Assembly (NCBI GenBank): GCA_026394715.1
Contig: JAPKXR010000204.1
Coordinates: 1 to 45,837 of the forward strand
DNA from: Methanomicrobiales archaeon
Lineage (GTDB): Archaea; Halobacteriota; Methanomicrobia; Methanomicrobiales; Methanospirillaceae
Length of the DNA: 45,837 nucleotides
Direction of reading: 5' to 3'
The position numbers were made by a program, and so were the translations under genes. Under the pieces are notes generated by a model. That model saw only the letters and a program-made list of their open reading frames with translations, made no database searches and was not told where the DNA came from. Positions 35,024 to 40,004 of the stretch are shown here, piece by piece. Numbering within the stretch: the stretch's first letter is position 1; each line of letters opens with the position of its first letter.

Positions 35024-36103
35024 TTATCGCTCCGCACATCCAATACAAGGATCTATCGATAGCACAATTACCGGAACATCCGCAAGTTCGCATCCTTTCA
35101 GCGCTTTTACGAGAAACGGAATATTTGCAAATGTCGGTGTCCTGACCCTGTGGCGGAGCAGATGACGGGTCCCGTTTCCCTTTACATAATGCATCACTTC
35201 ACCACGGGGCTGTTCTGCCCGTGCCCAGCACTCACCATTGGGAGTACCGGTTATTTTAACCTCAACCGGCCCATCGGGAATCTTATCTACCGCCTTTGTG
35301 ATAATATCAATCGATGTTAGCAGTTCCTTTCCCCGGACAACACAGCGGGCATAACAATCTCCACTTTTTTCCACAACGGGCCTGAAATCGATCTTGTCAT
35401 AGGCTGCATACCCAAGCATTCGGGCATCCTCTGCAATACCACTTCCACGCCCTGTCGGACCGACTGCACCAAGTTCATAGGCCTCTTTTTCCAGAATTAT
35501 CCCAATCCCTTTCGTACGGTGCCGGACCGAACTGTCATTGAAAAAGACCTTGTTCAATTCCCTTATATCAGACCCCAAATCTTTTAGACCCGTGACCATC
35601 TCGTCGAGTTTCTTATTCTCAATATCCCTTCGGACACCTCCAATCTTGCACGCCCCCTGGATAACACGTCCTCCTGTCGTTGCCTCAAGGTCATCAAGGA
35701 TCTGTTCACGCAATCGCCACGACTGCATAAAGAGGTTTTCAAATCCAAGAGAATCGGCAAACAAACCGAGCCAGAGGAGATGAGAGTGCATCCTCGAATA
35801 TTCAGACCATATGGTTCGAAGATACAGGGCCCGTTCGGGGACATCGATACCCATAACCGTCTCAATTGCCGTCACATACGTACTGCCATGGATAAAGCTA
35901 CAAATTCCACATATCCGTTCCGCAACGTACACATATTCAGGGAATTCGCGTTTTTCGACCAGTTTTTCCAACCCACGGTGGACATACCCTATAGAGGGAA
36001 TTGCCTCAACTACTATTTCATCCTCAAGGACGAGGTCGAGGTGGATAGGTTCCGGTAGCACCGGGTGCTGTGGCCCGAATGGGATGATTATTCGCCGGGA
36101 CAT
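35024..36103 (-). CDS. Group 4 [NiFe]-hydrogenase-like large subunit (EchE/NuoD type)
   Basis: 359 aa with both nickel-binding cysteine pairs, ERICGICSFIH near residue 63 and DPCIGCAER at the extreme C-terminus, as in Ech/Mbh/Eha-type large subunits. It begins IPFGPQHPVLPEPIHLDL, the NuoD-family start. There is no C-terminal extension for a maturation protease, as in EchE. SD AAGGAGGA before ATG; overlaps the upstream NuoC-like gene by 16 bp. The electron-transfer (small), ferredoxin and membrane subunits needed for an Ech complex are absent here. H2/ferredoxin chemistry is likely but the partner is unknown. Confidence 0.85.
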   Translation of the reverse strand: MSRRIIIPFGPQHPVLPEPIHLDLVLEDEIVVEAIPSIGYVHRGLEKLVEKREFPEYVYVAERICGICSFIHGSTYVTAIETVMGIDVPERALYLRTIWSEYSRMHSHLLWLGLFADSLGFENLFMQSWRLREQILDDLEATTGGRVIQGACKIGGVRRDIENKKLDEMVTGLKDLGSDIRELNKVFFNDSSVRHRTKGIGIILEKEAYELGAVGPTGRGSGIAEDARMLGYAAYDKIDFRPVVEKSGDCYARCVVRGKELLTSIDIITKAVDKIPDGPVEVKITGTPNGECWARAEQPRGEVMHYVKGNGTRHLLRHRVRTPTFANIPFLVKALKGCELADVPVIVLSIDPCIGCAER

Positions 36104-36471
36104 GAGTTGTCCTCCTTGCGGTCGGTATTTACACTGAACGGGTATTTGATAGCGGTCCGGAAGAAAGTGCCGTTGAAATCAAGAGCAATACCCGTGACGG
36201 TAATCCCAAAGAGGTCATGCATCTCGTTCTCGTACGGGAACGCAGCCCAATAAATCCCGGTGATACTAGGGATCGCTGCCCCGGTCGGAACAAGCAGTCT
36301 GAGCGTCCTGAATAAAAAGTTCCGGTCAAACGAGTAGTCCACCTGGAATATCTCACCGAGTTTGGTTATGCTGATCGCAACGAGCCTGTACCCCTCGCTG
36401 TGCAGCTTGGACACACAGGATATTAGATCCGGCGTTTCCGTTGGAATTACCGGTTGTTCTTCTGCCTTCAT
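36088..36471 (-). CDS. NuoC/EchD-like 30-kDa-type subunit
   Basis: About 127 aa; YWAAFPYENEMHDLFGITVTG is the NuoC signature with the ExHDxFG core, preceded by FQVDYSFDRNFLFRTLRLLVP. In group 4 hydrogenases this subunit binds next to the large subunit. ATG 36471 has GGTGG six bases upstream; ATG 36477 or a GTG at 36498 are alternatives. It ends in the start of the large-subunit gene. Confidence 0.75.
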   Translation of the reverse strand: MKAEEQPVIPTETPDLISCVSKLHSEGYRLVAISITKLGEIFQVDYSFDRNFLFRTLRLLVPTGAAIPSITGIYWAAFPYENEMHDLFGITVTGIALDFNGTFFRTAIKYPFSVNTDRKEDNSCPGE

Positions 36472-36498
36472 GCACATCCACCCACCCTGATTTTGCAC

Positions 36499-36743
36499 CT
36501 TCTATAATCACCATATCCTTTCGATGATGATGAATTTATTATCGCCATCGTGTGTATGTGCACCCCGATACTGAGTAGAGGTGCTGGGGAATGACATCGG
36601 TATTCATCATGAATTTTCATATGCACTACCTATTTACGCTCATATGCGTAAAAACTACACTTCATAACAAATGAGTTTGTTGAAGGAATGCACATTAAGG
36701 ATCGAGGGAACCAGACAGCGGAAAAAAGGATAATTAACTGCAC
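36499..36743. promoter_or_regulatory. Upstream region of the hydrogenase-like pair
   Basis: Holds palindrome copy 4, a TATA-like TGATTATAGA (minus strand, about 36503-36512) and the end of the aquaporin operon. A 20-codon frame at 36671-36733 (plus) starts 18 bases after the palindrome, but coding is unproven. Confidence 0.4.
36633..36652. promoter_or_regulatory. Regulon palindrome, copy 4 (perfect)
   Basis: Reads TTTACGC-TCATAT-GCGTAAA: seven-base arms that are exact reverse complements around a six-base spacer. The clearest copy and the basis for the consensus. Nearest gene start is the NuoC-like subunit on the minus strand, about 160 bases away. Confidence 0.75.
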
Positions 36744-37136
36744 TCACTCCGCCGTAATCCGGTCGTAGAAGACTGCTGCTGCTATTGCACCGATGACCGG
36801 CCCGAGGATGTAAATCGGGAAGAATACCCAGAGGTTCGAGCTGCCAAGCAGGAAGTCCATCACGTACGGTCCAAACGTGCGGGCAGGGTTGATGTGAGCC
36901 CCGGATACCCGGCCAAGCGCATAGATGACGGCGGCAATGACGATACCGAACGTGATCCCGATCGCAAACCAGTCACCGAGCCCTCCGAGCTGGCCAATCC
37001 CGATATTGAAGGGGGTTGCCGGTTTTGTCCCATGTGCGATCATCAGCGTGATGGCCGCTGCTCCGGCACCGAAATACACGAGAAGAGCTGTTCCGACACC
37101 CTCAGCAATACTGCGATTAGCTAGCGAAGCCATCAC
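36744..37136 (-). CDS. Half-size AqpM-type aquaporin with the middle deleted
   Basis: 130 aa versus about 246 aa for methanogen AqpM. The N-terminal part (first helix, PFNIGIGQLGGLGDWFAIGITFG, SGAHINPA) matches AqpM up to the first NPA motif; it then continues directly with RTFGPYVMDFLLG, the sequence that follows the second NPA in AqpM, and ends with the last helix. So one NPA is left and helices in between are gone, as expected from a deletion between the two NPA repeats. It could work as a dimer of halves or be non-functional. ATGA overlap with the DUF2180 gene. Confidence 0.8.
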   Translation of the reverse strand: MMASLANRSIAEGVGTALLVYFGAGAAAITLMIAHGTKPATPFNIGIGQLGGLGDWFAIGITFGIVIAAVIYALGRVSGAHINPARTFGPYVMDFLLGSSNLWVFFPIYILGPVIGAIAAAVFYDRITAE

Positions 37137-37345
37137 TTACCATCCCCGTACGCAGCATTGCAGTCCGGGCAGAGCATACGGGGCATCTTCTTTGGCAGTT
37201 TGCGGGAGGGAAGCGGGTACCCGCCCTCCCAGACATCGACTTCTTTCCGGATCGTGTGCTTCATGCACGTCCCCATGCCGCATGCAACGCATACCGCAAC
37301 GGCATCGCTCTCCTTTCCCTCTTTTGCACAGACATAGCACTTCAT
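37133..37345 (-). CDS. DUF2180 zinc-ribbon protein
   Basis: 70 aa with CYVCAKEG, CVACGMGTCMKHT and CPDC, an eight-ligand pattern suggesting two zinc sites, followed by the family's EVWEGGYPLP-like EVDVWEGGYPLPSRKL. DUF2180 is known from methanogens and has no assigned function. ATG 37345 has SD GAGGTGAG four bases upstream; an ATG three codons earlier lacks one. Middle gene of DUF2193-DUF2180-aquaporin. Confidence 0.8.
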   Translation of the reverse strand: MKCYVCAKEGKESDAVAVCVACGMGTCMKHTIRKEVDVWEGGYPLPSRKLPKKMPRMLCPDCNAAYGDGK

Positions 37346-37372
37346 GATTCTCACCTCGTCCCGGTACCGGGA

Positions 37373-38872
37373 TTAGACAGATTCCTTCCACTGGCAGGAG
37401 CAGTGCCGGAAATCCATCAGGGCTGCCGATGCGCAGTCCTTGCAGATCCGGGCAGGAGCCGCTGCAACTTCCTTGTGCAGGGCAATGATGTTGGTCATCA
37501 GGGTTGCCGTGACCGGCTCGCTTGTCAGCAGGCACGGATAGTCGGAGAGGCGCATCATGGCCGAGAACCGGACGGTCATCGCACAGGCCGGGTACGCGTA
37601 CCGCTGCGGGTTTGCCAGCACCTCGTTCTTGAGAACGGGAGAGAGATCGATATCGAACCCACCGACTTTCGGCTTCACCAGCCCCGGCTCGCTGCTCTGC
37701 ATCCTTCGCGCCTTGTCGACCATCTTCCAACCCCGGTAGATCATGTCCATGAAGTCGCAGTTGTGGAGCTCGATGGCTGCCCCCCGCTTTGGGTAGAGCT
37801 GGACATAGTTGTGGTAACGCTTGGTCAGCATGTCCACAACCATAATTGCGTTGAACCCGTCGAGTTCAAGGATATATTCCGCAGCACTTGCCGATGCTCC
37901 AGTCGCTACCGAAAGAACTCCGTTTTCGGTTTTCATCTTCGGGGCCGCTGCGTGCAGGGTCTTGTCCATGACCTCAGTCACCGCTTCGATGACGGCCATG
38001 ATCACGTCGTCCTTGCACATGTTGTACGTTGATTGCGAAATGTGGTGGGCAATGTCCCCAACACAATAGGCCGGTACGGTAACGATGTTGCCGTAGTGGA
38101 CACCCTCGTCAAGGGAGGCTTTCACCGCACCCTGCATCTTCGTGCGGTAGTCCTTCATGTACTTCCGGAAGTCGAACGAGGACTGGCCCACACTGTCCAT
38201 GAGTTTTGCCTGGGCATCGACCGGTGTGTCGTAGATGGACTGGACCATCGCGACTTCCTTCTTTACCGCGTCTGCAAGAGTGGCTCCTCCCTCAACTGCG
38301 TGAGCGAAAACATCACCGATACCGTACGAGGTGTTCATGCCCCATGATTTCGCGGCAAGGATCCCCTGCTTATGTGCAACCGGAATATCCGTTGTTTTGA
38401 GGATCTGGTTGACGATGTTGCTGCTGCTCCCCGGGATCAGGGCAAAATCTACAACACAGGTCGGACCATAAAATCCCGCATAACGCCGGGCAGATTCCTT
38501 CCCGATCAGGGCTTCGGCTTTCCCGATCGCCTTGATGAACACATCCACGCTCTTCCGAAACTTCGGGTCCGCATCGTAGAGCATCTCCAGGATGACAGGC
38601 GTCTGGTAGTGCTCGACATAGGGATCGTCTTCAGGACGGATGGTGTTCGTCAGACCCTTCAAAATGGTGTAATGGGCATTGACCGAATCGGTGTGCAGGG
38701 CAAAGACTGCCTTGCTCTGGCCCCCGGCGGGTTTCATGCCTTTGACTGCGTCAACGTAGACTTTCGTGTCTTCGATGACGAATTTTTCACCGCGTTTCTT
38801 TTTTATCTGGTTCACGTCGGCGTGCTGTGCAGCCATCGCTTCCGTGATCATCTTTTTGATTATTTCCTGCAT
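37373..38872 (-). CDS. DUF2193 family methanogen protein
   Basis: 499 aa, cytosolic, no membrane segments. Blocks RRYAGFYGPTCVVDFALIPG, HYGNIVTVPAYCVGDIAHHISQ and AYPACAMTVRFSAMMRLSDYP resemble DUF2193, a family I know only from methanogens and relatives. The C-terminus is Cys/His-rich (CKDCASAALMDFRHCSC), pointing to a metal or Fe-S site. ATG 38872 is preferred: a TATA box lies 65-78 bases upstream, whereas the longer frame would start within it. First gene of its operon; 27 bases separate it from DUF2180. Confidence 0.75.
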   Translation of the reverse strand: MQEIIKKMITEAMAAQHADVNQIKKKRGEKFVIEDTKVYVDAVKGMKPAGGQSKAVFALHTDSVNAHYTILKGLTNTIRPEDDPYVEHYQTPVILEMLYDADPKFRKSVDVFIKAIGKAEALIGKESARRYAGFYGPTCVVDFALIPGSSSNIVNQILKTTDIPVAHKQGILAAKSWGMNTSYGIGDVFAHAVEGGATLADAVKKEVAMVQSIYDTPVDAQAKLMDSVGQSSFDFRKYMKDYRTKMQGAVKASLDEGVHYGNIVTVPAYCVGDIAHHISQSTYNMCKDDVIMAVIEAVTEVMDKTLHAAAPKMKTENGVLSVATGASASAAEYILELDGFNAIMVVDMLTKRYHNYVQLYPKRGAAIELHNCDFMDMIYRGWKMVDKARRMQSSEPGLVKPKVGGFDIDLSPVLKNEVLANPQRYAYPACAMTVRFSAMMRLSDYPCLLTSEPVTATLMTNIIALHKEVAAAPARICKDCASAALMDFRHCSCQWKESV

Positions 38873-38936
38873 GGTGCTGCAACTCCCGGCACCGGTATCA
38901 GAGGGGGTGCCTGTAATGCAACCTATGGTGCAGCCC

Positions 38937-38950
38937 ATTAATAAATACAT
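38937..38950 (-). promoter_or_regulatory. TATA box of the DUF2193 operon
   Basis: ATGTATTTATTAAT on the minus strand; predicted transcription start near 38918, about 45 bases before the ATG. Confidence 0.5.
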
Positions 38951-39454
38951 TCAGGCAAAAACCGTGGATAACGGAAGTAAGGCGGATCCGTGTATGACAC
39001 GTATTGCTGCACTCGTTCGCTCCAGGGGTTATTACTGCTGAACCTGAAGTCTGCCCAGACCTCTCAAAATACCCTGATTTCATGTGGGCGACCAAATCCC
39101 CGGTAGTAACCATCACCCATCAGTGCGAATTCCCTGTACCGGAATTCCCGTGAGGGTGCCACTCTTATCCCATCAGTTCATCTCCATGGAGTTATGCCGT
39201 TCCGTAGCAAAACAGAACCATGATTTTTCCATCGTGGCTCACGGTATACCCAACTACCGCATTGGGGTTTACGCGTGATGAATTCAAATAAGCCCGTTAA
39301 TTCCCTTTTTTCCATAATAAGGCAAAATCGCACCGTGAGAGGTCGCCATTAACTGCGTGTAATCGTGCCTGATTCTGCCACATATATTACCCCGTCCGGA
39401 CCCCTACAAGATTGCCGGGACGCGAACAGGAGGGTCATTGTTCCGGGGACCGGA
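38951..39454. other. 0.5 kb without a recognisable gene
   Basis: Short frames only, none with a recognisable motif. It separates the DUF2193 promoter from the 3' end of a hypothetical gene on the same strand. Confidence 0.4.
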
Positions 39455-39898
39455 TTATACCTGGCATCCCGGGGTATCCTGCTGGATCCGCCGTACGGCT
39501 GATATTTCGGGAATATTCTCTCCCCCCAGTGCCGTAACAATGGACTGGACATAGGGCTCCTGCCGCGTCATGCTTGGTGATACACATTTGTCCAGCCGCC
39601 CCCCTTTTCTGCCCATCTGTGCAGAACCGGTTGCGATGAAGTGGAGGAAATCTTCTTTTGGAAGACCCCATTTTGTGTTGATCTTCAGGTGAATGATATT
39701 CCAGTTGTCTGGGTTGGGATACATCACGGCCCGGGTACCGGGCAGCCGGACCGCATCCCCCCGATTGGATTGTGACAATGCAACAACCCGCGACCACAGG
39801 GGGTTACACGCAGTCTTTGCCATGGGGCAGTCCCGGCAGAACCTGTTCGTCGGGGGCAGTGCATCCCCCTGGTAATGAGAGCAGAATGTGATGTCCAT
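39455..39898 (-). CDS. Hypothetical protein with an N-terminal cysteine cluster
   Basis: 147 aa, not recognised. The N-terminus has CSHYQGDALPPTNRFCRDCP and KTAC, a C-x15-C-x2-C-x5-C spacing that suggests a zinc or Fe-S site; the rest has blocks NWNIIHLKINTKWGLPKED and FLHFIATGSAQMGRKGGRLDKC. No signal peptide. An ACATTAAAACC TATA-like stretch on the minus strand about 30 bases upstream supports transcription. Divergent from the flavoprotein gene. Confidence 0.55.
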   Translation of the reverse strand: MDITFCSHYQGDALPPTNRFCRDCPMAKTACNPLWSRVVALSQSNRGDAVRLPGTRAVMYPNPDNWNIIHLKINTKWGLPKEDFLHFIATGSAQMGRKGGRLDKCVSPSMTRQEPYVQSIVTALGGENIPEISAVRRIQQDTPGCQV

Positions 39899-40004
39899 CG
39901 CAGAGTGTTATTCAGAAACGCACGGTTTTAATGTATTGATCTATTATCGCATGACCGGGTGGTTGCATCGCAACTATCATAAGCCGGTGCGCTGAGCATT
40001 TACT

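Follow-up and report, generated by a model that had tools for sequence, protein, structure and literature searches.

In-frame loss of the stretch between the two NPA sites of an archaeal aquaporin gene, a likely disabled duplicate

Introduction

The closest described proteins to the gene studied here are the archaeal aquaporins AqpM of Methanothermobacter (structures 2evu and 2f2b) and Archaeoglobus (3ne2). The two halves of an aquaporin are related by inverted pseudo-symmetry (PMC3962082). Variant NPA motifs are reported in a survey of prokaryotic aquaporins, and the accessible part of its text makes no mention of a half-size form (PMC6912568). In a partial literature search, covering papers other than subscription ones, we found neither the term "half-aquaporin" nor any truncated or single-NPA prokaryotic MIP. 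Half-size membrane proteins of dual topology are exemplified by the Fluc fluoride channels (PMC3755343). Fluc channels share no homology with the gene described below; the likeness is one of analogy only, its product being a small unit that might pair antiparallel, and any dual topology or transport by it would be hypothetical.

Here we describe a halved aqpM gene in a methanogen related to Methanoregula, in which it is one of two water-channel genes. Both retained parts of its product align with AqpM, including SGxHINPA and NPARTFGPY, but 117 residues are missing, and with them TM3, TM4, TM5 and the other NPA motif. Unlike the halved gene, the aqpM genes found in the corresponding cassettes of Methanoregula relatives (L005, L006, L008 and L010) encode 247 amino acids with both NPA motifs.

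Results and Discussion

Structure of the halved gene

Coordinates refer to the window, the whole stretch of 45,837 nucleotides that was analysed (Table 1). The open reading frame can begin with the GTG at 37136 or the ATG at 37133 and ends with the TGA at 36744-36746, all on the minus strand; the ATG is the start kept in relatives, whose protein begins MASL. The predicted protein contains GRVSGAHINPARTFGPY. It matches Pfam MIP (PF00230) in two stretches (E 5e-17, 62.9 bits against a cut-off of 25), and its score of 74.8 bits for NCBIfam TIGR00861 (MIP family channel protein) lies under the curated cut-off of 171.25 bits. When compared using phmmer, the AqpM structures 2evu and 3ne2 are each matched as two separate pieces; in 2evu, residues 2-100 of the half fall on the first repeat and residues 59-130 on the second. 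In full-length orthologues, the counterpart of residues 1-85 is the first repeat up to and including its NPA, and that of residues 86-130 is the sequence after the second NPA. Amino acid identity to the full-length L005 protein is 97.6% for the first-repeat part and, over the matching C-terminal region, about 87% for the C part. Rather than two NPA repeats with six spans and two half-helices in one chain, the gene thus encodes one composite repeat with one NPA. The reading frame is well above chance, with 130 codons open, the upstream gene order kept and a junction pattern matched in this genome only among those searched. It shows no further decay: the frame and the start are intact, as are the C-terminus and the overlap with the upstream stop. 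Truncation at a contig edge is ruled out because the reading frame lies well within the 45.8-kb contig.

Table 1. Features of the halved aqpM gene, its cassette and the second locus (window coordinates unless another locus is named)
Feature	Position	Strand	Remarks
Halved aqpM ORF	36744..37136	-	130 aa (GTG start) or 129 aa (ATG start, likelier)
First-repeat part before NPA: TM1, TM2, start of loop B	36891..37136	-	Match to 2evu first repeat
Junction AACCCTGCC (Asn-Pro-Ala)	36882..36890	-	Sequence common to both fused sites
C part: remainder of the loop E helix after the second NPA, then TM6	36747..36881	-	Match to 2evu residues 175-246
Small Cys-rich (CxxC) protein	37133..37345	-	70 aa; kept upstream of aqpM in relatives
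DUF2193 protein, intact	37373..38950	-	First cassette gene; Pfam DUF2193 E 2e-269
Extra cassette	36690..39444	-	Flanks separated by 15 nt in sister genome G001 (contig C3)
Decayed DUF2193 fragments	L062:6581-6866 (G000:C273)		Upstream of full-length aqpM

The deletion and its junction

Aligned with 19 full-length relatives, the half has a single clean gap, which is 117 residues long and runs from NPA to NPA, and relative to the 247-aa orthologues the missing stretch is exactly 117 codons (351 bp). The two NPA sites are also 351 bp apart in each of 14 full-length genes examined at the codon level, namely the copy on contig C273 of the same genome and 13 genes of other loci. The junction reads GGGGCTCACATCAACCCTGCC then CGCACGTTTGGACC; its left side resembles first-NPA sites (21 nt are identical to that of L012) and its right side resembles second-NPA sites. 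The longest in-register identical run between the two NPA sites is 4-11 nt in relatives, and the longest of these, TCAACCCGGCC, is present at both sites. Since the NPA sites share short in-register sequence, a deletion by short homology at this place would be in frame by construction, and we infer that such a mechanism took out the missing codons. The initial annotation, made from the sequence alone, had described an aquaporin cut in frame between its two NPA repeats with the loss of roughly 115 residues, which agrees with our results apart from the slightly low count. It had further attributed the loss to recombination between the repeated motifs; the short run shared by the two sites accords with this proposal, in which the mechanism itself stays presumptive.

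The junction pattern (36868-36902) was sought among 232 genomes of the order and 345 genomes sampled from the phylum, two sets that overlap, and it matched the host genome only. The pattern was degenerate, leading from a first-type NPA context into NPARxFGP, and it is blind to half-aquaporins of other make; a reversed-pattern control gave no matches in the search. The junction could also be a wrong join of reads belonging to the two NPA sites, to different strains or to different paralogues, and the state of the genome, in 402 contigs and apparently metagenome-derived, speaks for this. We nevertheless regard an assembly artefact as improbable. At most 11 identical bases are found between the NPA sites of relatives and at most 17 between the half and the C273 aqpM, and usual k-mers are longer, which argues against an assembly collapse without proving its absence. 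The reading frame is perfect, and the N and C parts are both nearer the L005-type gene than the C273 gene, the C part alone being too short for firm placement between them. A cross between the genome's two paralogues was rejected as the main explanation on the same grounds.

Origin of the cassette

The halved gene is the last of a cassette with the order DUF2193 - CxxC protein - aqpM. The order is kept in relatives, and the aqpM genes of L005, L006, L008 and L010, which lie behind the same upstream genes, share 81-90% nucleotide identity with the N part of the half. The TGA stop of the CxxC gene overlaps the aqpM ATG (TGATG), which suggests translational coupling of the two genes. The sequences flanking the cassette (36598-36689 and 39445-39962) align to contig C3 of G001, a genome of the same genus, with 15 nt between them, and the downstream hydrogenase-like gene (35024-36103) and the gene at 39455-39898 are neighbours there. 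A Complex I 30-kDa-like gene beside the hydrogenase-like gene (36088-36498) is unmatched in the aligned stretch of G001 contig C3. G001 carries its own cassette, including a full-length aqpM, on another contig.

Judged by this alignment, the cassette would be either extra in the host genome or lost from the corresponding site in G001. Its DUF2193 protein shows 96% amino acid identity to that of L005 and 88% to that of G001, whereas for the ABC gene alongside, identity is 95% with G001 and 83% with the L005 genome. The similarity of the ABC gene to a genome of the same genus also rules out a contaminant contig. Because the cassette is absent from the matching G001 site and is closest to another lineage, it was probably imported from an L005-like lineage. 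An old duplication followed by differential loss is a possible alternative, and the genome UBA247, which has two cassette copies (L008 and L015), is compatible with it.

A second aqpM and complementary losses

A full-length aqpM is present in the same genome at G000:C273:15597-16337, where it adjoins a CxxC gene and a DUF2193 gene decayed to fragments. The two loci therefore show complementary losses: the cassette keeps DUF2193 and has its aqpM halved, and the C273 locus keeps aqpM and has its DUF2193 decayed. The disruption of the cassette aqpM is missing from its orthologues, and an intact copy exists elsewhere in the genome, as is expected of a disabled duplicate. With a full-length aqpM still at the other locus, the cassette aqpM would be redundant, and its deletion could be tolerated because of this redundancy.

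Taken together, the halved aqpM is likely a recently disabled duplicate, that is, a redundant copy in a gained cassette that suffered a loss-of-function deletion, in frame, between its NPA sites. The lineage would have gained a second DUF2193 - CxxC protein - aqpM operon, for which transfer from a related genome close to L005 is the most likely route; this operon now lies beside the hydrogenase-like operon. A deletion between the NPA-coding sites, which have about ten bases in common in the same register, would then have taken out 351 bp in frame. The product would retain one composite repeat made of TM1, TM2, a half-helix and TM6, with TM3, TM4 and TM5 gone, and it most likely forms no channel because these spans are lost.

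Pairwise, the half and L005 differ by dN 0.033 and dS 0.528. In a comparison with an outgroup, 21 synonymous and 5 nonsynonymous changes were assigned to the branch of the half (102 synonymous and 288 nonsynonymous sites), and this synonymous excess indicates that most of the branch was under constraint. All 5 nonsynonymous changes fall in the C part, where relatives vary as well. The mostly synonymous changes, like the intact frame and the lack of further decay, count somewhat against a disabled gene; they fit a late or recent deletion as well as a constrained product.

A product that is made could have no role beyond partnering or inhibiting the full-length paralogue, or could be a harmless membrane peptide. 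The same genome does encode a full-length paralogue, the frame of the half is intact and its coupling to the upstream stop is likely; mixed aquaporin assemblies, on the other hand, are normally made up of full-length subunits. We consider either of these readings improbable.

Predicted structure and possible function

Modelled by AlphaFold as a monomer with a shallow alignment (20 sequences), the half is predicted with pLDDT 54 and pTM 0.37, and its model has four helices at residues 2-36, 51-73, 82-98 and 103-127. Foldseek retrieved no PDB match below E 0.001 for this model, as expected at low model confidence. A full-length L005 control, also a monomer with a shallow alignment (19 sequences), reached pLDDT 75 and pTM 0.79, and its model matches 3ne2 and 2evu at TM ~0.88. 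There is thus no confident prediction that the half takes up half an aquaporin fold by itself, and this poor model, together with the missing TM3-TM5, suggests a loss of function.

It could be argued that the composite repeat inserts both ways and that two copies pair antiparallel into a pore with two NPA half-helices, like the presumed pre-duplication ancestor. The repeats are joined at a structurally equivalent point, giving TM1-TM2-half-helix-TM6 with an odd number of spans, the protein carries few charges, in balance (5 K/R, 5 D/E), neither the frame nor the operon context is disturbed, and aquaporin halves show inverted pseudo-symmetry (PMC3962082). However, the half has lost the contacts of TM3-TM5 along with some of the selectivity filter, a homodimer would have Arg after both NPA motifs, and model confidence is low where that of the full-length control is good. 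The form is also absent from every other sampled genome and is unnecessary given the full-length copy. A functional half-aquaporin is therefore very unlikely in our judgement, and a natural aquaporin of one repeat, active as an antiparallel homodimer and derived by reversing the ancient internal duplication, is slightly less probable still. The initial annotation had noted that a natural half-aquaporin would be remarkable if functional; the full-length paralogue, the redundant cassette, the decayed copies in relatives and the poor fold beside the control weigh against this idea without disproving it.

If the gene is a disabled duplicate only, it would still be a clean case of an internally repeated gene dropping one repeat in frame, and also a case of two operon copies each losing what the other keeps. 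Its sequence is a ready natural construct for asking if a single aquaporin repeat is able to insert, pair and conduct, a question that bears on the origin of two-repeat channels.

Aquaporin relics and variants in relatives

Other altered aquaporin genes were seen among the genomes compared. The same-genus genome G002 retains a remnant of the last 26 aquaporin residues (L060:4133-4210; G002:C38:40587-40709), and no DUF2193 gene was found in it. In G043, the aquaporin gene is interrupted by a stop. A 134-aa reading frame with the second aquaporin repeat only occurs in G045 (L063:1620-2024), downstream of a 333-aa reading frame for a putative FEN1-type nuclease. In a complete Methanoregula genome, a DUF2193 match breaks off at about 236 residues, with a frameshifted aqpM behind it (L028:3807-5207). 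In many AqpM sequences of Methanoregula and Methanolinea (L007, L013, L014 and L019-L025), the second NPA is NTA (LNTARTFG) and the first NPA is unchanged.
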